Of a DNA stretch of 64,000 bases, positions 39,824 through 56,464 are shown piece after piece. The position numbers were made by a program, and so were the translations under genes. Numbering within the stretch: position 1 is the stretch's first letter; every line of letters starts with the position of its first letter. Source of the DNA: Deltaproteobacteria bacterium (GTDB lineage: Bacteria; Desulfobacterota; Desulfomonilia; UBA1062); assembly GCA_017992605.1 (NCBI GenBank), contig JAGOOG010000004.1:1-64000 (forward strand), read 5' to 3'. Under the pieces are notes generated by a model. The model ran no database searches, was not told the origin of the DNA, and worked only from the letters and a program-made list of their open reading frames with translations.

Positions 39824-41563
39824 CTACCCCTTATCCTCTTCGCTGCCTGGCTTCGGGGGTTCGCCCGTGCCGACTTCGAGAGAGACCTCCCACTCGTCGG
39901 CAGGGTCGCCTATCTTGAGCCGGTGCTCCGGGAGATGCGTCCTGAGGTAGGACAGGAGAGCCTCGTTCATGCGGGATGTGGCCTTGCGCGATCCGGTGTC
40001 CCTGAAACGCTCGGGGTTCTTGAGGCACACCGCCGCAACGATGTCGTCCCGTTGGCTGACTGTCTCCATGGCGGCATCCATGTCCCGGGCCAGCCGCGAT
40101 CCATACACGGGGTACCGGAAACGACAGATCACCCGCGGGAGCCTCTGCTCGACCACCGAGACATCCATGCCGGTCTCTTTCCTGATCATGGAGGCGATGA
40201 GCCCCGTCGCCTCCGTGGACAGCGGCTCGTCCGCGATCCTGAACAGGGTGAGCTCGGTGCCCCGTGCGTGGAGGGCACACCTCCAGTCGTAGGCGCTCAC
40301 GGCGGGAACCTGTTCGTTCATCGCCGAGATGGCCTCCTCCAGGGAGATCCTGAGCAACTCCTCGTGGCGCGAGGCGGTCTCGTCGGCGGGACGCAGGGCA
40401 ATGCCCGGGGCCGGCGCCTGCCTGGCGGAGTCCATGGTCTCCATGAGCCTGTTGAGGAACTCGCTGCCCGTCTTGAAGGTCTTGCTCACATACTCCTCGG
40501 ACGGGATGAAGTCCACCGAGAGGCTGGGGGTTTCTCCCATGACGAGCCTGAGCGTCACCTTCAGGTCTTCCACGATCTCCTCTCTCTTTTCCGGGTCGCC
40601 CACGATGGTGAGCCTGAGCGTCACCTTCCTGCCGTCGAGGATCTGCTGCCTGCTCAGGATGCGGTACTTCTTCTCGTACTCGGCGAGGACCCGGTTGATG
40701 TTCGTCTTGGTGTTCACCTCCCAGGCCACCTGAGACAGGGCCGACGAGAGGGGGAGCGCGACGATGACCACGAACACGAGCGGCAGGGCTATCTTCAGGC
40801 GGGCCCACCTCAGGGTCTTGCGTTGGGCGATGTGGAGCGACTTCACGAACCGGTAAGTCCTCGATGCCTTCTGCCTGTCCCCGACCACCTGCTCCTCGAG
40901 GAGCTCCACATCGACGTGGGCAAAGCCCACCAGGAGAAAGAAGAGGTCCGAGACCAGGATGATGGCCGCGAGGTTCGCGATGAAGAGCAGGGTCGAGCCC
41001 ATGAACACCCTGCCGTCCAGGATGCCCAGCCCGAATCCCATGACGCACAGCGGCGGCACCAGGGCGATGGATATGGCGGTTCCGGCTGCTGCGGTCACCG
41101 TGTCGCTCGCCTGACGGGCCGTGGTGAGTGACGCGACCACGGCGCAGAACAGGGCCACGAAGAGGTCCAGCGCGTTGGGCTGGGTGCGGGCCGCTATCTC
41201 CGGGGTGATCTGCTCGAAGGGGAGGATCATGGTGGTCAGGGCGGCGAAGACCACCACGCCCAGGGTGCTCAGGAAGACCCTGATGAGCGACCGCAGTGCC
41301 AGGTAGAGGTTTCCCGCGGCAAAGGCCATGCCGGTCTGCACGAGCGGGGTCATCAGAGGCGAGACGAGCATGGCCCCGATGACCACGGCCGTGGAGTTCA
41401 TGACGAGGCCGAAGAATGCTATGCCGGCCGAGATGGCGAGGTAGACCCAGTATACGGCAGGGTGCTGCTCCGTCGAGGCGAAGAGTTCCCTCGCCACATG
41501 CTGGATGCGGGTCTCCGGCAGACCGATGAGGTTCTGTATCTTTCTCTGCACGGACCGGTTCAT
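39824..41563 (-). CDS. DUF389 integral membrane protein
   Basis: A 579-residue protein. The first 270 residues carry five to six membrane spans with the DUF389 pattern (SAGIAFFGLVMNSTAVVIGAML, MTPLVQTGMAFAAGN, ISIALVPPLCVMGFGLGIL). The rest is a soluble domain of about 300 residues. DUF389 proteins are widespread and functionally uncharacterised. TTGCAA and TATAGT (minus strand, 41570-41597, 16-bp spacer) end 6 nt before the ATG and there is no Shine-Dalgarno, so the mRNA is probably leaderless. It converges with ClC (7-bp gap). Confidence 0.85.
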   Translation of the reverse strand: MNRSVQRKIQNLIGLPETRIQHVARELFASTEQHPAVYWVYLAISAGIAFFGLVMNSTAVVIGAMLVSPLMTPLVQTGMAFAAGNLYLALRSLIRVFLSTLGVVVFAALTTMILPFEQITPEIAARTQPNALDLFVALFCAVVASLTTARQASDTVTAAAGTAISIALVPPLCVMGFGLGILDGRVFMGSTLLFIANLAAIILVSDLFFLLVGFAHVDVELLEEQVVGDRQKASRTYRFVKSLHIAQRKTLRWARLKIALPLVFVVIVALPLSSALSQVAWEVNTKTNINRVLAEYEKKYRILSRQQILDGRKVTLRLTIVGDPEKREEIVEDLKVTLRLVMGETPSLSVDFIPSEEYVSKTFKTGSEFLNRLMETMDSARQAPAPGIALRPADETASRHEELLRISLEEAISAMNEQVPAVSAYDWRCALHARGTELTLFRIADEPLSTEATGLIASMIRKETGMDVSVVEQRLPRVICRFRYPVYGSRLARDMDAAMETVSQRDDIVAAVCLKNPERFRDTGSRKATSRMNEALLSYLRTHLPEHRLKIGDPADEWEVSLEVGTGEPPKPGSEEDKG

Positions 41564-41588
41564 GGTTGTACTATACCCGCCTGTTCAA

Positions 41589-44297
41589 TCATTGCAAGAC
41601 ACGCCGTGCCCGGGACCGCACGATCCGCTTCTCCACGCCGACCACCACCATGACGAGAGCACCCGCGACGAGGATGCGAACCCAGGCCTCCAGTCCGATG
41701 GGGCTGCTGCCGAAGGCCGTGTTCATGAACGGGGCGTAGGTGAAGAGGAGCTGCAGGAGCACCATGAGCCCTGCCCCGCCGAAGACCCACGGGTTGGAGA
41801 AGAACCCCACCTCGAAGACCGACTTGGTGAGCGAACGGCAGTTGAAGAGATAGAAGAGCTCGGCCATGACGAACACGTTCACCGCGACGGTCCGTGCCTC
41901 TGCGACCGTCGCCCCTGCGACCGTCATTTCATACTTGAAGAGTCCGAAAGACCCCAGGAGCAGCAGACATCCCACGAGGATGATCCGCCATAGGATTCCG
42001 CTGGTGAGGATGGCTTCGGCGGGGTTGCGCGGCGGCCTGTCCATGATGTCAGGCTCCTTGGGCTCGAAGACCAGCATGAGGCCCAGCAGCACGGCCGTGG
42101 TCATGTTGATCCACAGGATCTGCACCGGCATGATGGGCAGCATGGTCCCGATGAGGACGGCCGCCAGGATCACCAGGCCCTCGCCGATGTTTGTGGGGAG
42201 CGTCCACACGATGAACTTGGTGAGGTTGTCATAGGTGCCGCGCCCCTCCTCGACGGCGGCCTCGATGGAGGCGAAGTTGTCGTCGGTGAGGACCATGTCC
42301 GAGGCCTCCTTGGCCACGTCCGTACCCGTGATGCCCATGGCCACGCCGATATCGGCGCGCTTCAGGGCGGGGGCGTCGTTCACCCCGTCGCCGGTCATGG
42401 CCACGACATTGCCCTTGGCCTGGAGGGCCTCCACCAGGCGGAGCTTCTGCTCGGGCGCCACCCGGGCGTACACCGAGACCTCGTCCACGATGCCGACGAC
42501 CTCCCTGTCGCTCATCCGTGCCAGATCCCTGCCCGTGACGGCCCGGTCGGCATTGCGCAGCCCGATCTGCCGTGCGATGGCCGAGGCCGTGATCGCGTGA
42601 TCGCCCGTGATCATCTTCACGTGGATGCCGGCGTCGTGGCAGTCCCGCACCGCCTCGATCGCCTCCTTCCGGGGCGGGTCGATCATGCCCTGCAGGCCGA
42701 GGAAGGTCAGGCCCGAGGCGATGTCCTTGTGATCGATGGTCTGCACTCCTTTCTGTACGGCCTTCATGGCGAATGCGAGGACCCTGAGACCCCTCCGGGC
42801 CATGGCGTCCACGGCCGCGTTTATGGCGGGCACGTCGGGATCGACCCGGTTCCCCTCATGGTCCAGGGATGAGGCGCACCGCTCCAGCATGGCCTCCACC
42901 GAACCCTTCACGTAGGCTGCCGCATTGTCCCCGCCAGGCGCTGCATGGAGGGTGGCCATGTACTGGTGGTGCGATTCGAAGGGGATCGTGTCGAGACGCC
43001 TCCACTGCGATCCTTCCTTCTCCATGGTCAGCCCGGCCTTGCCCGCCGACACGATGAGCGCCCCCTCGGTGGGGTCCCCCTGTACGGTCAGGCGACCGTC
43101 CTCCTCCACCAGCCGGCTGTCGTTGCACAGCAGACCGCACCTGAGGATCTCGGTGAGCGCGGTGGGGGCGGGTTCCCCGACAGGCTGGTCACCCCGCGAG
43201 ATCACGCCATCGGCCCCGTAGCCGGTGCCGCTGACCGCGAAGACTTCATTTCCCGCCACGATCTCCTGGACGGTCATCTGGTTCTCGGTGAGCGTGCCCG
43301 TCTTGTCCGAGCAGATCACCGTGGTGCTGCCCAGGGTCTCCACCGCGGGCAGCTTGCGGATGATGGCACGCCTGCGCGCCATGCGGGCCACGCCGATGGC
43401 CAGCGTGATGGTCATGGCCGCGGGAAGCCCCTCGGGGATGGCGCCCACGGCCAGTGCCACGGCCGCCATGAACATGTCGAAGGCGCTCTGTCCCCGCAGG
43501 ACGCCCACCAGGAAGGTGACGGCCGCCAGGGCCAGGATCACGTAGAGCAGCACCCTGCTGAAATCGGCGATCTTGCGCAGGAGGGGGGTCTGCAGCTCCT
43601 CGGTCTCAGAGATGAGCTGGGAGATGCGGCCCACCTCCGTGTGGTCCCCGATGGCAACCACGACCCCGGACGCCTGCCCGAAGGTGACCAGGGTGGATCC
43701 GTAGGCCATGTTGCTCCGGTCGGCAAGCACCGTGTCGTGAGGCAGGACCTCCTGGGCCTTCCTGGCCGGGACCGACTCGCCGGTGAGGGCGGACTCGTCG
43801 ACCTGGAGGTCCCGGGCGGTCGTCAGGCGGAGATCCGCAGGGACCTTGTCCCCGGACTGGAGCAGGACGATGTCTCCGGGCACCACCTCTGCCGACGAGA
43901 TGCGCGTCTTTTCGCCTGCCCTCAAGACCGTTGCCTCGGTGACCATGGTCCTGGCAAGTGCCTCCATGGCCTTGACCGCCCTCGCCTCCTGGACAAAGCC
44001 TATGACGGCGTTGACGAGGACCACCCCGAAGATGACCCCGGCGTCGACCCATTCCTGGAGCATGGCCGTGATGATCCCCGCAGCCAGGAGGATGTAGATC
44101 AGGGGCTGGTGGAACTGGAGGAGGAAGCGGAGCAGGGGACCCTTGCCCTTCTTCGTGGTGATGACGTTTTCACCGAACCTGGCACGACGCTCCCCGACCT
44201 CGAACAGGTCGAGCCCCTTCTCAGAGTCGCTCTCCAGGATATCGAGGACCTCGTCCGCAGGCATGTGGTGCCAGTGTTTTCCTATGAGTTGATCCAT
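41589..44297 (-). CDS. Cation-transporting P-type ATPase (Ca2+-ATPase-like, P2 type)
   Basis: A 902-residue P-type ATPase: N-terminal cation ATPase domain, actuator TGES near residue 170 (ALTGESVPAR), PEGLP in M4 (GAIPEGLPAAMTI), phosphorylation site CSDKTGTLTENQ near 332, nucleotide domain, hinge MTGDGVNDAPALK near 640, and a six-helix C-terminal domain with NMTTAVLLGLMLVFEP. PEGLP is typical of Ca2+/Mn2+ or Na+ pumps of the SERCA/PMR1 group. AAAGGAG precedes the ATG and a TATAAT box lies about 100 nt upstream. Ion specificity is uncertain. Confidence 0.93.
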   Translation of the reverse strand: MDQLIGKHWHHMPADEVLDILESDSEKGLDLFEVGERRARFGENVITTKKGKGPLLRFLLQFHQPLIYILLAAGIITAMLQEWVDAGVIFGVVLVNAVIGFVQEARAVKAMEALARTMVTEATVLRAGEKTRISSAEVVPGDIVLLQSGDKVPADLRLTTARDLQVDESALTGESVPARKAQEVLPHDTVLADRSNMAYGSTLVTFGQASGVVVAIGDHTEVGRISQLISETEELQTPLLRKIADFSRVLLYVILALAAVTFLVGVLRGQSAFDMFMAAVALAVGAIPEGLPAAMTITLAIGVARMARRRAIIRKLPAVETLGSTTVICSDKTGTLTENQMTVQEIVAGNEVFAVSGTGYGADGVISRGDQPVGEPAPTALTEILRCGLLCNDSRLVEEDGRLTVQGDPTEGALIVSAGKAGLTMEKEGSQWRRLDTIPFESHHQYMATLHAAPGGDNAAAYVKGSVEAMLERCASSLDHEGNRVDPDVPAINAAVDAMARRGLRVLAFAMKAVQKGVQTIDHKDIASGLTFLGLQGMIDPPRKEAIEAVRDCHDAGIHVKMITGDHAITASAIARQIGLRNADRAVTGRDLARMSDREVVGIVDEVSVYARVAPEQKLRLVEALQAKGNVVAMTGDGVNDAPALKRADIGVAMGITGTDVAKEASDMVLTDDNFASIEAAVEEGRGTYDNLTKFIVWTLPTNIGEGLVILAAVLIGTMLPIMPVQILWINMTTAVLLGLMLVFEPKEPDIMDRPPRNPAEAILTSGILWRIILVGCLLLLGSFGLFKYEMTVAGATVAEARTVAVNVFVMAELFYLFNCRSLTKSVFEVGFFSNPWVFGGAGLMVLLQLLFTYAPFMNTAFGSSPIGLEAWVRILVAGALVMVVVGVEKRIVRSRARRVLQ

Positions 44298-49414: not shown

Positions 49415-49496
49415 GCCATCCGTCTTGTCGACAGATGGCGGCCCGACCATCCGCCAGTCCTGCGGTGACCGGCCCTCCGGTCACTCCCCCCCTGTA
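49415..49496 (-). ncRNA. Structured leader element, copy A (upstream of pal)
   Basis: On the minus strand a GTGACCGG/CCGGTCAC hairpin is followed by CAGGA, then CGGATGGTCGGGCCGCCATC and AAGACGG. The same string with identical spacing recurs at 49938-50009. Two mutually exclusive pairings are possible: GGATGG with CCATC, or GCCATC with the downstream GATGGC. This looks like a cis-acting RNA switch or a family of small elements; no known class matched. Confidence 0.4.
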
Positions 49497-49520: not shown

Positions 49521-49868
49521 CTAGTGCACTCGTGTGACTATCGCATGGGCGAGTACCCAGAACAACCCGGCCGCTGCAATGAGCTTGATGGCATATCGTG
49601 CCAAATCCCTCATGGTTTCGGGTTCATTCTCCTCTGTATGCCCATGGTATACAGAGATGTCCACGTACCGAGTCACGATGAGCCCGGCGACTGCAATCCA
49701 GAAGACCACATCGAGAACAGCCCGTGATTCGTGCGAACCGACAATGATCAGAATGAGCAGGATGACAAGGAGAAAGTTGCCGAGAACCTTCCAGGTGAGA
49801 CGCACCATGCGTGCGGCGACGTCATCGTTTTCTGTCTCTACGACATGCTGCTGCGGTATCTTATCCAT
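49521..49868 (-). CDS. PsiE-like small membrane protein
   Basis: A 115-residue membrane protein. A hydrophilic N-terminus is followed by three to four hydrophobic segments (VLGNFLLVILLILIIVG, VLDVVFWIAVAGLIVTRYVD, LIAAAGLFWVLAHAIV), with the acidic loop HGHTEENEPE between. Topology and the VTRYVDISVYHG motif resemble PsiE/phosphate-starvation-inducible proteins, but sequence support is modest. GGAGGC precedes the ATG. The duplicated leader element lies about 85 nt upstream. Confidence 0.6.
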   Translation of the reverse strand: MDKIPQQHVVETENDDVAARMVRLTWKVLGNFLLVILLILIIVGSHESRAVLDVVFWIAVAGLIVTRYVDISVYHGHTEENEPETMRDLARYAIKLIAAAGLFWVLAHAIVTRVH

Positions 49869-49937: not shown

Positions 49938-50009
49938 CGTCTTATCTCTGGATGGCGGCCCGACCATCCGGAAATCCTGAAGCGACGAAACCGCAGGCCG
50001 CTTCACCCT
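49938..50009 (-). ncRNA. Structured leader element, copy B (upstream of the PsiE-like gene)
   Basis: It shares with copy A the 20-bp identity GATGGCGGCCCGACCATCCG (plus strand 49951-49970), the box CCGTCTT 7 nt to the left and TCCTG 4 nt to the right, all without gaps. Its 5' hairpin (minus strand) is GAAGCG/CGCTTC, different in sequence from copy A but in the same position. The alternative pairing CATCC with GGGTG is preserved. Confidence 0.4.
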
Positions 50010-50108: not shown

Positions 50109-50136
50109 TTGAAAACGCTGCCCCGTGGGATATGTG
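50109..50136 (+). promoter_or_regulatory. Candidate promoter for the fluoride riboswitch transcript
   Basis: TTGAAA (50109-50114) and TATGTG (50131-50136) are 16 bp apart and end about 14 nt before the riboswitch, so transcription would start just ahead of it. Confidence 0.4.
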
Positions 50137-50150
50137 TCGGGTACCGTACC

Positions 50151-50211
50151 GGGGATGGAGTCCCCCTGCAACCGCCGGATATGGCTGATGACTCCCGGCA
50201 GAGCGATCTGC
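50151..50211 (+). ncRNA. Fluoride riboswitch (crcB motif) with adjoining hairpin
   Basis: The order and spacing fit the fluoride aptamer: GGGGATGGAGTCCCC (first stem-loop), AACCGCC, a short loop, then GGCTGATGACTCC. The loop GGAGTC is complementary to GACTCC, giving the required pseudoknot, and GCC pairs with GGC. A GCAGA/TCTGC hairpin (50198-50211) follows directly and abuts the AAGGAG ribosome site at 50212-50217, so control of translation is likely. Known aptamers switch on crcB or ClC-F exporters at toxic fluoride. Here only a 43-codon ORF follows. Confidence 0.85.
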
Positions 50212-50223
50212 AAGGAGTTTTTC

Positions 50224-50355
50224 ATGGTTTCGGCATCAGAGAACAGTCCCACCCGTGGCAGGTCCGGCGTGATCGAGGAACTGATCCGGCGTCTCGCCGC
50301 CCGGCAGACAGGGGAGCACGGATCTCCTGTTCATGGCCGAGAGAGGGAACGCTGA
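50224..50355 (+). CDS. 43-residue protein under fluoride riboswitch control
   Basis: ATG 50224 is 6 nt behind AAGGAG, which itself abuts the riboswitch expression platform. The product is short and charged: MVSASENSP at the start, an amphipathic helix GVIEELIRRLAARQ in the middle and a tail ending RERER. It has no membrane segment and no family I recognise. It is not a fluoride exporter. It could be a small regulatory peptide, the remnant of a longer fluoride-responsive gene, or chance coding behind an orphan riboswitch. The convergent MFS terminator begins 28 nt after its stop. Confidence 0.45.
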   Translation: MVSASENSPTRGRSGVIEELIRRLAARQTGEHGSPVHGRERER

Positions 50356-50382: not shown

Positions 50383-50418
50383 ATAAAAAGGGCAGGCCGG
50401 GATTCCTCCGGGCCTGCC
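50383..50418 (-). terminator. Intrinsic terminator of the first OFA carrier gene
   Basis: GGGCAGGCC (50389-50397) and its complement (50410-50418) form a stem with a 12-nt loop partly closed by CCGG pairs. On the minus strand it is followed by TTTTTAT. It lies 25 nt after the MFS stop. Confidence 0.8.
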
Positions 50419-50442
50419 CTCTCTTTTCACATTCTGTTGCGG

Positions 50443-51696
50443 TTAGGCCGTTCTGTGCATCGGTTTCTTGTAGACCAGCGCGATGACGAAGCCCACTGCG
50501 AGCAGTGCCGCCGCGGCGTAGAGGGCGCCCTGGAAGCTCTGGGTGGCCTCGTAGATCCTGGCGAATATGAGCGGGCCGACAACGCCTGCCACACCCCACG
50601 CGGTGAGCATGATGCCGTAGATGCGCCCGATGTTCTTGGGCCCGAAGGCATCAGCCGCAAAGGCCGGCATGGTGGCGAAGCCGCCGCCGTAGCAGGCGAG
50701 CAGGTAGCAGGCGATGATGGTGAACATGAGCTGGTTGGTGATCTTGGGGAAGAGGATGTAGAGGATCGCCTGGCTGAGGAACATGGTGATGAACACGCCC
50801 TTGCGGCCGATGAAGTCGGAGGTCCACGCCCAGAAGAGCCGGCCCGCGCCGTTGAATATGGAAGCGATGGCCAGGATCGAGCCTCCTGCAATGGCCAGCG
50901 CTTCAGGGGTGATCTCCGGGATATTCAACTTGACCACGTTCTGTGCCATGGGCGAAAGCTGCGAGATGAGGCCGATGCCTGCGCTGATGTTGAGACAGAG
51001 CATGGCCCAGAGCATCCACCACTGGGGGGTCCTGATGGCCTCGCCCGTCTCGTAGGAGTCAGCGGCGCTCGCACCGCCGCCCGCTGCCGGGGAGAACCCT
51101 GCAGGCAGCCAGCCTGCCGGGGGATTCTTGTAGAACTGGGCGGAAAGCGTCACCAGGACCAGGAAGATGGCGCCCCACATGTAGAACGTGTTGGCCACGC
51201 CCATGCTGACGATGTTCGCCGGTGCGATCTTGCCCATGAAGAACGCGCCCATGCCGAAACCCATGACCGCCAGGCCGGTGACCAGGCCGCGCTTGTCGGG
51301 GAACCATCGCACCAGGGTGGCGATGGGGGTGATGTAGCCGAAGGCGTTGCCGATGGCTGCGATCACGCCGTAGCCCAGGTAGAGGAGCCAGAGGCTTCCG
51401 ATATGATCGGCATAGCCGGCCAGTATGGTCCCGGCGCCGAACAGTATCCCGCCCAGGGTACCGGTGAACCGGGGCCCCTTCTTGTCCAGGATGGTCCCGC
51501 CGAACGCGCAGAACAGGCCGATGAGGCCGATGCACAGGACAAAGGTCATCTGGGTCTGGGTCTCGGTCCATCCATGGCTCGCAATGAGCGCCTTCTTGAA
51601 CACGGACCATGCATAGACGGTTCCCAGACTGAGCTGCATGACAATTGCAGCGATCGCGATAATCCATCTTTTGCTTTCAAGATTTTCGTTGGCCAT
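50443..51696 (-). CDS. OFA-family major facilitator (oxalate/formate antiporter type)
   Basis: A 417-residue MFS carrier with twelve hydrophobic spans. It shows SLGTVYAWSVFKKAL in span 1, WFPDKRGLVTGLAVMGFGMGA in the conserved loop between spans 4 and 5, and NGAGRLFWAWTSDFIGRK between 8 and 9, all OFA hallmarks. OFA members exchange oxalate, formate or other carboxylates; the exact substrate is unknown. With two formate dehydrogenases nearby, formate or a related acid is plausible. It is divergent from a second, distinct OFA gene. GAGGGGG precedes the ATG. Confidence 0.9.
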   Translation of the reverse strand: MANENLESKRWIIAIAAIVMQLSLGTVYAWSVFKKALIASHGWTETQTQMTFVLCIGLIGLFCAFGGTILDKKGPRFTGTLGGILFGAGTILAGYADHIGSLWLLYLGYGVIAAIGNAFGYITPIATLVRWFPDKRGLVTGLAVMGFGMGAFFMGKIAPANIVSMGVANTFYMWGAIFLVLVTLSAQFYKNPPAGWLPAGFSPAAGGGASAADSYETGEAIRTPQWWMLWAMLCLNISAGIGLISQLSPMAQNVVKLNIPEITPEALAIAGGSILAIASIFNGAGRLFWAWTSDFIGRKGVFITMFLSQAILYILFPKITNQLMFTIIACYLLACYGGGFATMPAFAADAFGPKNIGRIYGIMLTAWGVAGVVGPLIFARIYEATQSFQGALYAAAALLAVGFVIALVYKKPMHRTA

Positions 51697-53476: not shown

Positions 53477-56164
53477 TCAGGCAACCTTGCGCATCTTCAC
53501 CGCGCAGACCTTGTACTCGGGGATGTTCGCCACCGGGTCGATGGCCTTGTTCGTGAGCCTGTTCACCGCTGCCTCGCTGTAGTGGAACGGGATGAACACG
53601 ACCCCCTCGTCGCACTTGCGCGACACCTCGGCCGTGACCTCGATGGTGCCCCTGCGGCTGGCCACCTCGACCTTGTCCCCGTGGCCGATGCCCAGCTTCT
53701 TCGCATCGGCCGGGTTGACCTCGACAAATGCATCGGGTGTCCGCGAGACGAGACCCTTCGAGCGTCGGCTCATGGTGGAGGTGTGGTACTGGTAGAGGAT
53801 GCGGCCCGTGGTGAGCATGAGGGGATACTCCCTGTCGGGCAGCTCGGCCGGCGGGATGTGCTCGCACACGGTGAAGAGGCCCTTGCCCCTCGTGAAGGCG
53901 GCACCGTGGAGGATCGGGGTGCCGGGGTGTCCGGGAGTGGGGCACGGCCACTGGAGGCCTTTCCACTCGATGCGGTCGTAGGTGATGCCCGCGTAGGACG
54001 CCGTGACGCGCGCGACCTCCTCGAACACGGCCTGGGCGCTGTCGTAGCTCCAGGGAGCTCCCATCTTATCGGCGATGGCGGTGATGATCGCCCAGTCGTC
54101 CCTCGCCTCGCCGGGGGCGTCGACGGCCTTGCGAATGCGCTGGACCCGGCGCTCGGTGTTGGTGAAGGTCCCTTCCTTCTCGGCCCAGGCCGAGCTCGGC
54201 AGGACCACGTGGGCGAGCTGAGCCGTCTCGTTGAGGAAGATGTCCTGGACGATGAAGAGGTCGAGGTTCTTCAGGGCGTGCTCCACGTGGGCCGTGTCCG
54301 GGTCGGACATCATGGGGTTCTCGCCCATGACGTAGAGGGCCTTGACCGTCCCGTCGGCCGCGCCGTCGATGATCTTGGGTATGGTGAGTCCCGGCTTGGC
54401 AGGCAGCTTCACCCCCCAGGCCTCCTCGAAGGGCTTGCGCTCGGCGTCCTCGGCCACCCGCTTGTAGGCCGGCAGGTTGCCGGGCAGGCAGGCCATGTCG
54501 CAGGCGCCCTGCACGTTGTTCTGGCCGCGCAGCGGGTTCACACCGGTGCCGGGCCTGCCGATGTTGCCCGTGAGCATGGCCAGGTTGGCACACGACTTCA
54601 CGTTGTCCGTACCCGTGATGTGCTGGGTGATGCCCATGGCGTACAGGATGGCCGACGCCCCGGAGGTCGCGTAGAGCCTGGCGGCCTTCTTGAGATCCTC
54701 GGCCGGGATGCCGGTGATGGACTCGACATGCTCGGGGGTGTACTTCTTGACCGTCTCCTTGAGCGCCTCGAAGTTCTCGGTGCGCTCTTCGATGAAGGTC
54801 TTGTCGTGGAGGCCCTCACTGATGATCACGTTCATCATGCCGTTGAGCCAAGCTATGTCGGTGCCAGGCTTCTGGCGGAGCCAGACGGTGGCGAACTTGG
54901 CGAGGTCGATCCTCCTCGGGTCCACCAGGATGAGCTTGGCGCCCTTCTGGGTCACGGCCCGCTTCACGAAGGTGGAGATCACCGGGTGATTCTCCGTGGT
55001 GTTGGTGCCGGTGATGAGGAAGCACTTCGCATCCTCGATGTCGGCGATGGAATTCGTCATGGCGCCCGAACCGAACGCGGTGGCCAGACCGGCCACGGTG
55101 GAACTGTGTCAGAGCCGGGCGCAGTGGTCGACGTTGTTGGTCCCCACCACCGCGCGGAGGAACTTCTGGAACAGATAGTTCTCCTCGTTGGTGCAACGGG
55201 CCGACGCGAAGCCTGCGACGGCGTCCGGGCCATGGGTATCCCTGATCGCAGTGAGCTTCTCGGCGATGTAGCCGATGGCCTCGTCCCAGCTCGCCTCCTT
55301 GAGCTCGCCGTCGATCCTGATCATGGGCTTGGTGAGCCGGTCAGGGTGATCGATGAAGTCGTACCCGAAGCGCCCCTTGATGCACAGGCTGCCGTAATTG
55401 GGCGGCGGGGCGTTCCACCGGGGGGTGGTCACCTTGACTATCTTGCCGTCCTTCACGTTGAGCTCGAGCTGGCAGCCCACGCCGCAGTATTCACAGGTGG
55501 TGCGCACCTTGCGGGCCTCACCCGCCCTGCTCTTGAAACGGCCCTGCTTCTCGAAGAGCGCACCCACCGGGCAGAGCCTCACGCACTCGCCGCAGAAGAC
55601 GCACGTCGAATCCTCGTAGGTCAGCCCGAAGGCGGGACCCACGCTCGCCGTGGGGCCGCGCCCGGAGAAGTCGAGGACCTGGTTGACCTGGATCTCGTTG
55701 CACGCCCGCACGCACAGGCCGCACAGGATGCACTTGTTCATGTCGCGCACGATCATCTCGTTGGCCTGCTCCAGGGGTTTGTAGGTTTCCGGCTCAGGGA
55801 AGCGCGGGGTGTCGATGCCCAGCGAGTAGGCCAGGCTCTGGAGCACGCAGTCGCCGTTGCTCTCGCACACCAGGCAGTTGTGGTGGCCCTGGGTGAGGAG
55901 CAGTTCGACCGTGAGCCTGCGGGCATTGAGAACCCGTTCGGAGTTGGTGGTGACCACCATGCCTTTTTCGGCGGGCATGGCGCAGGACGCCACCAGGGAG
56001 CGGGCCCCCTGGACCTCGACCACGCAGACCCGGCACGCGCCCACGGGCTTGAGCTGTTCCTGGTGGCAGAGCACCGGGATGGGGATACCGTTGTCCCTGG
56101 CCACCTCGTAGACCGTCTGGCCGGGGGTGAATGTACATTCCTTGCCGTCAATCACTATCGTCAT
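53477..56164 (-). CDS. fdhA: Cytoplasmic formate dehydrogenase alpha subunit, selenocysteine-containing
   Basis: A molybdopterin enzyme of about 895 residues read through TGA (55109-55111) as Sec in the context CARL-U-HSSTVAGLATAFG. The N-terminus is that of NuoG/HndD: a [2Fe-2S] domain (CHQEQLKPVGACRVC), a His/Cys cluster site (HHNCLVCESNGDCVLQ) and two [4Fe-4S] motifs (CILCGLCVRAC, CVFCGECVRLC). Then CEYCGVGC leads into the catalytic domains. There is no signal peptide, so it is cytoplasmic. This layout is used when formate is coupled to NAD and often ferredoxin via NuoEF-like partners, which are encoded upstream. AGGAGG precedes the ATG. Confidence 0.95.
55080..55111 (-). promoter_or_regulatory. 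Sec codon and SECIS element of fdhA
   Basis: UGA at 55109-55111 is followed by GTGGCC-GGTCT-GGCCAC (55080-55096, minus strand), a 6-bp stem with the same GGUCU apex as in fdnG. The stem differs while the loop is kept, as expected for a SelB target. Confidence 0.9.
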
Positions 56165-56464
56165 GAGTGTCCTCCTGGGAACAGAGAATGTGCACCGCAT
56201 GTGTACCGCGTGACAGAATACGAATGGATTCGGTGCGCTCGCAATGATGTGTAGAGTTCTTCATGAATCAGTATGCTCGTTTTTACACAATTATAACTTA
56301 TTGATATATGATGCTTTTGCTAGCTATATGTCACATAGAGTTCATGGTACAGAAAACCATTATCATCCTCTGTCAGGAAAATCCAGAGAAAATTTCCCAT
56401 GGGTCTCAGATTCGTGGAAAAAACATGACAGCCAGCCGGACAATCCAGGTAAGGGTATGGTGGG
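56165..56464. other. AT-rich upstream region of fdhA
   Basis: About 300 bp with much lower GC content than the surroundings. On the minus strand a consensus TATAAT lies at 56290-56295, but no good -35 box is 16-18 bp upstream; the fdhA leader would be about 120 nt. I see no coding sequence and no known riboswitch. An activator-dependent promoter is possible. Confidence 0.4.

Follow-up and report, generated by a model that had tools for sequence, protein, structure and literature searches.

The fluoride riboswitch of the window, i.e., the whole 64,000-nucleotide stretch of DNA that was analysed, is very probably an orphan, left behind when an in-frame deletion of ~520 codons reduced the dynamin-like GTPase gene under its control to a 43-codon scar. 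The sequence supports this reading through the switch itself, its expression platform, the synteny with related genomes, the absence of the gene, and a relic of the GTPase C-tail within the scar. We further infer that the switch responds to its ligand, that the deletion was a single event, and that the 43-residue product is functionless. The locus would thus be a clear natural case in which a riboswitch has outlived its gene and the deletion scar can still be read; the riboswitch class is a known one found in an unusual state, and of lasting interest is the link to the GTPase to which the orphan led. The anatomy of the locus (Table 1) matches that given in the preliminary description far beyond chance.

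Table 1. Features of the probably orphaned fluoride switch locus and its surroundings (positions in the window)
Feature	Position	Strand	Basis and remarks
Possible promoter	50109..50136	+	Putative: TTGAAA 50109-50114, 16-nt spacer, TATGTG 50131-50136
Fluoride riboswitch aptamer (crcB motif)	50151..50195	+	Rfam RF01734, 42.3 bits
Expression platform hairpin	50190..50219	+	GACUCC (3' pseudoknot strand) pairs with Shine-Dalgarno GGAGUU
Shine-Dalgarno AAGGAG	50212..50217	+	Sequence; aligns with the Shine-Dalgarno of G002 and G004
43-codon ORF	50224..50355	+	Start and first ~7 codons, C-terminal relic, run-on
GTPase C-tail relic, codons 8-26	50245..50301	+	C-tail profile match, consensus SkTeGqTeeIrrlieeLee
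Terminator-like hairpin between convergent units	50389..50420	+	T-rich tail on + strand; -28.3 kcal/mol, z -5.6
Convergent MFS transporter (OxlT-like by eye)	50443..51696	-	66-67% identity to G004/G002 copies; syntenic marker
Formate-dehydrogenase-like (molybdopterin oxidoreductase) gene	53477..55096	-	80-83% identity to same-contig copies of G002/G004; named by translation alone

The aptamer scores well above the RF01734 gathering score of 34 bits (E value of 2.3e-8 for the window) and is the sole match to this family in the 2.71-Mb genome, which is 98.5% complete. The crcB-motif hallmarks noted in the preliminary description are borne out by this score and by the two pseudoknot strands, GGAGTC (50157-50162) and GACTCC (50190-50195), which are mutually complementary. 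As in other fluoride riboswitches, P1, P3, the long-range pseudoknot, and the conserved UGAUGACUCC are all present, and the cmscan alignment of the window shows no broken pairs. By the established workings of this riboswitch class, a leader of the translational type would have its Shine-Dalgarno closed without fluoride, and fluoride would close the pseudoknot and open the Shine-Dalgarno. The window follows this ON-switch logic, based on competition for the 3' pseudoknot strand, from which the platform hairpin (-16.3 kcal/mol, z -3.7) is built so as to tie up the Shine-Dalgarno; the reach of this hairpin to AAGGAG had been noticed before. Pairing of the Shine-Dalgarno with the 3' pseudoknot strand was found in all 13 leaders of the translational type, the window's included. 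The platforms were judged by single-sequence folds and not by covariation of the outer stem, since ACUCC, belonging to the aptamer, does not vary and an extra base of the window is wrongly placed in the alignment. The leader of the window resembles a translational ON switch that looks functional and would respond to its ligand. Its putative -35 box lies at the position of the relatives' TTGACA and its -10 box is poor; a TTGAC is present 26 to 52 nt upstream in 37 of 44 homologous leaders. With TTGAAA and TATGTG in the window and TTGACA in most relatives, the promoter may have been weakened, although this comparison is only suggestive.

What sets the window apart from the known switches is the downstream gene, which reads as a deletion scar. 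Published targets of fluoride switches comprise exporters, Na+/H+ antiporters, mutS, and genes of K+/Cl- transport and formate hydrogen lyase (PMC11139923, PMC2864571), and none of the target types named there stands behind the switch of the window. The 43-codon ORF is its only possible target, as had been proposed. The terminator-like hairpin and then the convergent MFS gene follow, and the start codon and the MFS stop are just 219 bp apart. Residues 8 to 26 of the ORF (SPTRGRSGVIEELIRRLAA) align gap-free with the consensus of the GTPase tail. Short as it is, with 19 residues and 7.6 bits, this match has a score that was reached by none of 1,979 real 43-residue pieces of the window and by a single one of 5,000 shuffles. 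Moreover, pairwise scores of the ORF against 53 GTPases peak in their last 45 residues among all stretches tried (z 3.8). An N-terminal GTPase fragment, suggested by an alignment made by eye, was unsupported by a profile of the N-termini, and it is the C-tail that matches instead. The 43 codons contain none of the GTPase motifs GQFKAGKSS, DTPG, and TKxD and gave no Pfam match, the first seven codons show no significant similarity past the start region, and the 3' breakpoint is invisible at the DNA level, the DNA comparison giving no signal there.

The identity of the lost gene comes from two congeners, G004 and G002. In G004, homologues of the genes at window positions 39824-44297 are followed, after ~3.6 kb, by the switch (L032:7413), a 553-codon GTPase gene directly behind it (L032:7485-9146), a convergent MFS gene homologous to that of the window (66% identity), and formate-dehydrogenase-like genes homologous to window positions 53477-56200. 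The order in G002 is switch, GTPase (L033:8284-9945), CPA2 antiporter, one ORF, and then the convergent MFS and formate-dehydrogenase-like genes. DNA homology of the window with both genomes is unbroken through the aptamer, the hairpin, the Shine-Dalgarno, and the start codon (74-76% identity, E value of 3e-15). The window thus shares with these Syntrophales loci the position, leader, platform, Shine-Dalgarno, start, and flanks as well as the C-tail, present as a relic, whereas ~520 codons of the GTPase that is intact in both are missing from it. The preliminary description would have counted as refuted by relatives that carry the same switch before an intact exporter and do not conserve the 43 codons; this is what we found, with a GTPase replacing the exporter. 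No member of the switch-linked GTPase family, which is present in 12 of 25 genomes searched, and no fragment of one was detected anywhere in the 98.5%-complete genome of the window, nor was the CPA2 antiporter that G002 has in its operon. Two further congeners point to a system that is dispensable in the genus: G001 has neither the GTPase nor an above-cut-off switch, its MFS copy adjoining other genes, and G003 (86% complete) gave no GTPase match and no good switch match.

Synteny therefore upholds the view that the switch was orphaned by gene loss, although what was lost is a gene for a dynamin-like GTPase and not the exporter that had been suspected. A search of 42 genomes of the class gave no CrcB that passed the Pfam cut-off, and the genome of the window has none either; exporter loss is therefore not the history of this locus and is not supported. 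The only ClC protein of the genome (38089-39816) was also considered and rejected as a fluoride exporter: it carries GREGP, and the signatures of ClC-F, GNNLI/GMGLI, GREGT/V, and GEVTP (PMC11139923), are all lacking. The search for crcB or ClC-F elsewhere in the genome, suggested at the outset, thus yielded neither.

We propose a model in which the ancestral leader acted as a translational ON switch that governed a bacterial dynamin-like GTPase of ~553 codons. Without fluoride, GACUCC of the aptamer would pair with the Shine-Dalgarno GGAGUU, resulting in a block of translation; with fluoride, GACUCC would be pulled into the pseudoknot with GGAGUC, thus freeing the Shine-Dalgarno. An in-frame internal deletion, spanning roughly codons 8 to 530, would then have removed ~520 codons and left the switch, the start codon, the first ~7 codons, the last ~20 to 25 codons, and a short run-on to the stop. 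Since every leader element is kept, this deletion probably happened recently compared with the split from G002 and G004, whose MFS proteins are 66-67% identical to that of the window. The intact look of the aptamer and platform is unlike that of an old relic, so either the deletion is recent or the switch is kept for something.

One such function could be a fluoride-induced micro-protein, i.e., a deletion product retained, perhaps in the form of a small amphipathic helix, and this would account for the intact switch. The switch, Shine-Dalgarno, start codon, and reading frame are indeed all intact, and the part that was kept is equivalent to the C-terminal helix in the model of the GTPase (536-552 in G004). 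However, the 43-residue sequence has no homologue among 40 relatives, its last ~15 codons are a low-complexity charged run-on, and G001 and G003 (the latter only 86% complete), which gave no GTPase match and no good switch match, show no sign of such a peptide. A wider search for a micro-protein family in 41 genomes and plasmids yielded chance matches only. The unrecognised fluoride-response micro-protein first envisaged thus turns out to be an unconserved ORF that is partly a relic of another gene; a conserved micro-protein is unlikely, and we give a functional one very little credence. It is just as improbable that the GTPase gene exists in the organism and was collapsed out of the assembly. 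The genome is a draft of 63 contigs, which makes a misassembly at the locus formally possible, but the contig is 176 kb long, the sequence from the switch to the MFS gene is unique and holds a run-on and a terminator of its own, with no clean join, and the nearly complete genome contains no GTPase fragment. Least probable of all is a decoy or regulatory RNA, acting in trans or tuning the convergent MFS mRNA, since, even though the fluoride-responsive transcript would be short (about 270 to 310 nt) and would meet the 3' end of the convergent MFS gene at a hairpin common to both, the translational-type platform common to all close GTPase leaders points to control of an ORF and no second stand-alone switch locus was seen among the switches read.

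The GTPase found behind these switches matches Pfam Dynamin_N at 84.6 bits (cut-off of 27), and its AlphaFold model (pLDDT 84.5) consists of a G domain and a long helical bundle, with Foldseek E values of 1e-18 to 1e-17 against IniA and BDLP. BDLP1 (2j68/2j69), the Campylobacter DLP pair (5owv), and IniA (6j72) are its nearest solved relatives and its best matches in both sequence and fold, albeit distant ones (15-19% identity by structure alignment). To our knowledge, none of the three is under a fluoride switch.

The association of fluoride switches with such GTPases extends far beyond the genus. A fluoride switch was detected at an E value of ≤0.001 in 27 of 60 genomes searched, sampled from genus to phylum, and the gene just behind the 26 strong switches outside the window encodes a dynamin-like GTPase in 18 cases; most of the remaining 8 have a CPA2 antiporter as first or later gene. 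Conversely, a scan with the GTPase alignment, limited to one genome per species, gave 80 loci (L074-L153), which were searched with a covariance model made from the 26 switches. In 60 of these 80 loci, a same-strand switch lies no more than 144 nt from the GTPase, and in another 12 it lies 0.9 to 2.9 kb upstream on the same strand (one of them, L142, weak at 23.5 bits), for a total of 72. In nine of the 12 distant cases, the genes after the switch look like an operon, commonly with a CPA2 antiporter and/or an enolase and then the GTPase; L141 and L152 are not readable as operons, and in L130 a small ORF on the opposite strand intervenes. The GTPase loci cover several phyla, including genomes of Spirochaetes, Bacillota, and Bacteroidota/Ignavibacteria/Chlorobiota. 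Altogether, in Syntrophales and in some members of these other groups, the switch precedes the GTPase far above chance, and the class genomes searched have no CrcB above the Pfam cut-off.

Complexes of fluoride with aluminium and magnesium imitate the GTP gamma-phosphate, and HF passes through membranes. Both properties make a membrane-remodelling GTPase in the fluoride response a testable idea, and one that is unreported as far as the open literature shows. Tentatively, the switch-controlled GTPases, in operons with CPA2, enolase, and HIT genes, could represent an unrecognised arm of fluoride defence that is prominent where CrcB is absent; the lineage of the window would have given it up, while perhaps still producing a C-terminal peptide of the GTPase upon induction by fluoride. 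No open-access report of a link between fluoride switches and dynamin-like GTPases was found, although Baker et al. 2012 may list it.

Several observations were made on the neighbours of these switches. Some loci (e.g., among L134, L135, and L151) show switch-CPA2-enolase-GTPase operons, in part with a HIT gene at the end. Enolase is a known member of fluoride operons. Antiporters are likewise known from them (PMC11139923). Another dynamin-like GTPase, of a second and diverged type (~31-37% identical), also occurs directly behind fluoride switches (L004, L006, L007, L011, L014, L017, L021, L022, L024, and L029); by eye, its leaders in L004, L011, L017, and L029 have a terminator-like platform and not Shine-Dalgarno sequestration. 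In 14 loci (L098:5679-6347 and 13 related ones), the fluoride-controlled GTPase is adjoined by a family of ~223 residues whose start looks P-loop-like by eye and which gave no match in Pfam or NCBIfam. In L028, a 159-codon ORF without Pfam match (1730-2206, + strand) is the first gene behind the fluoride switch, before a CPA2 antiporter.

The window also contains an nhaA-I riboswitch (Li+-I class; RF03057, 52.5 bits) at 49950-50008 on the - strand, divergent from the fluoride switch and ~140 bp away from it. It precedes a predicted membrane protein of 115 residues (49524-49868, - strand) with no Pfam or NCBIfam match. Deltaproteobacterial nhaA-I variants that have terminators and stand before genes of unknown function apparently sense an ion other than Li+ (PMC9646797). 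A second nhaA-I-like aptamer (49433-49488, - strand), below the cut-off at 31.6 bits and with its conserved GGAUGGUCGGGCCGCCAUC half intact, is overlapped by a terminator-like hairpin (49439-49415) and precedes the gene of an OmpA-family (Pal-like) lipoprotein.
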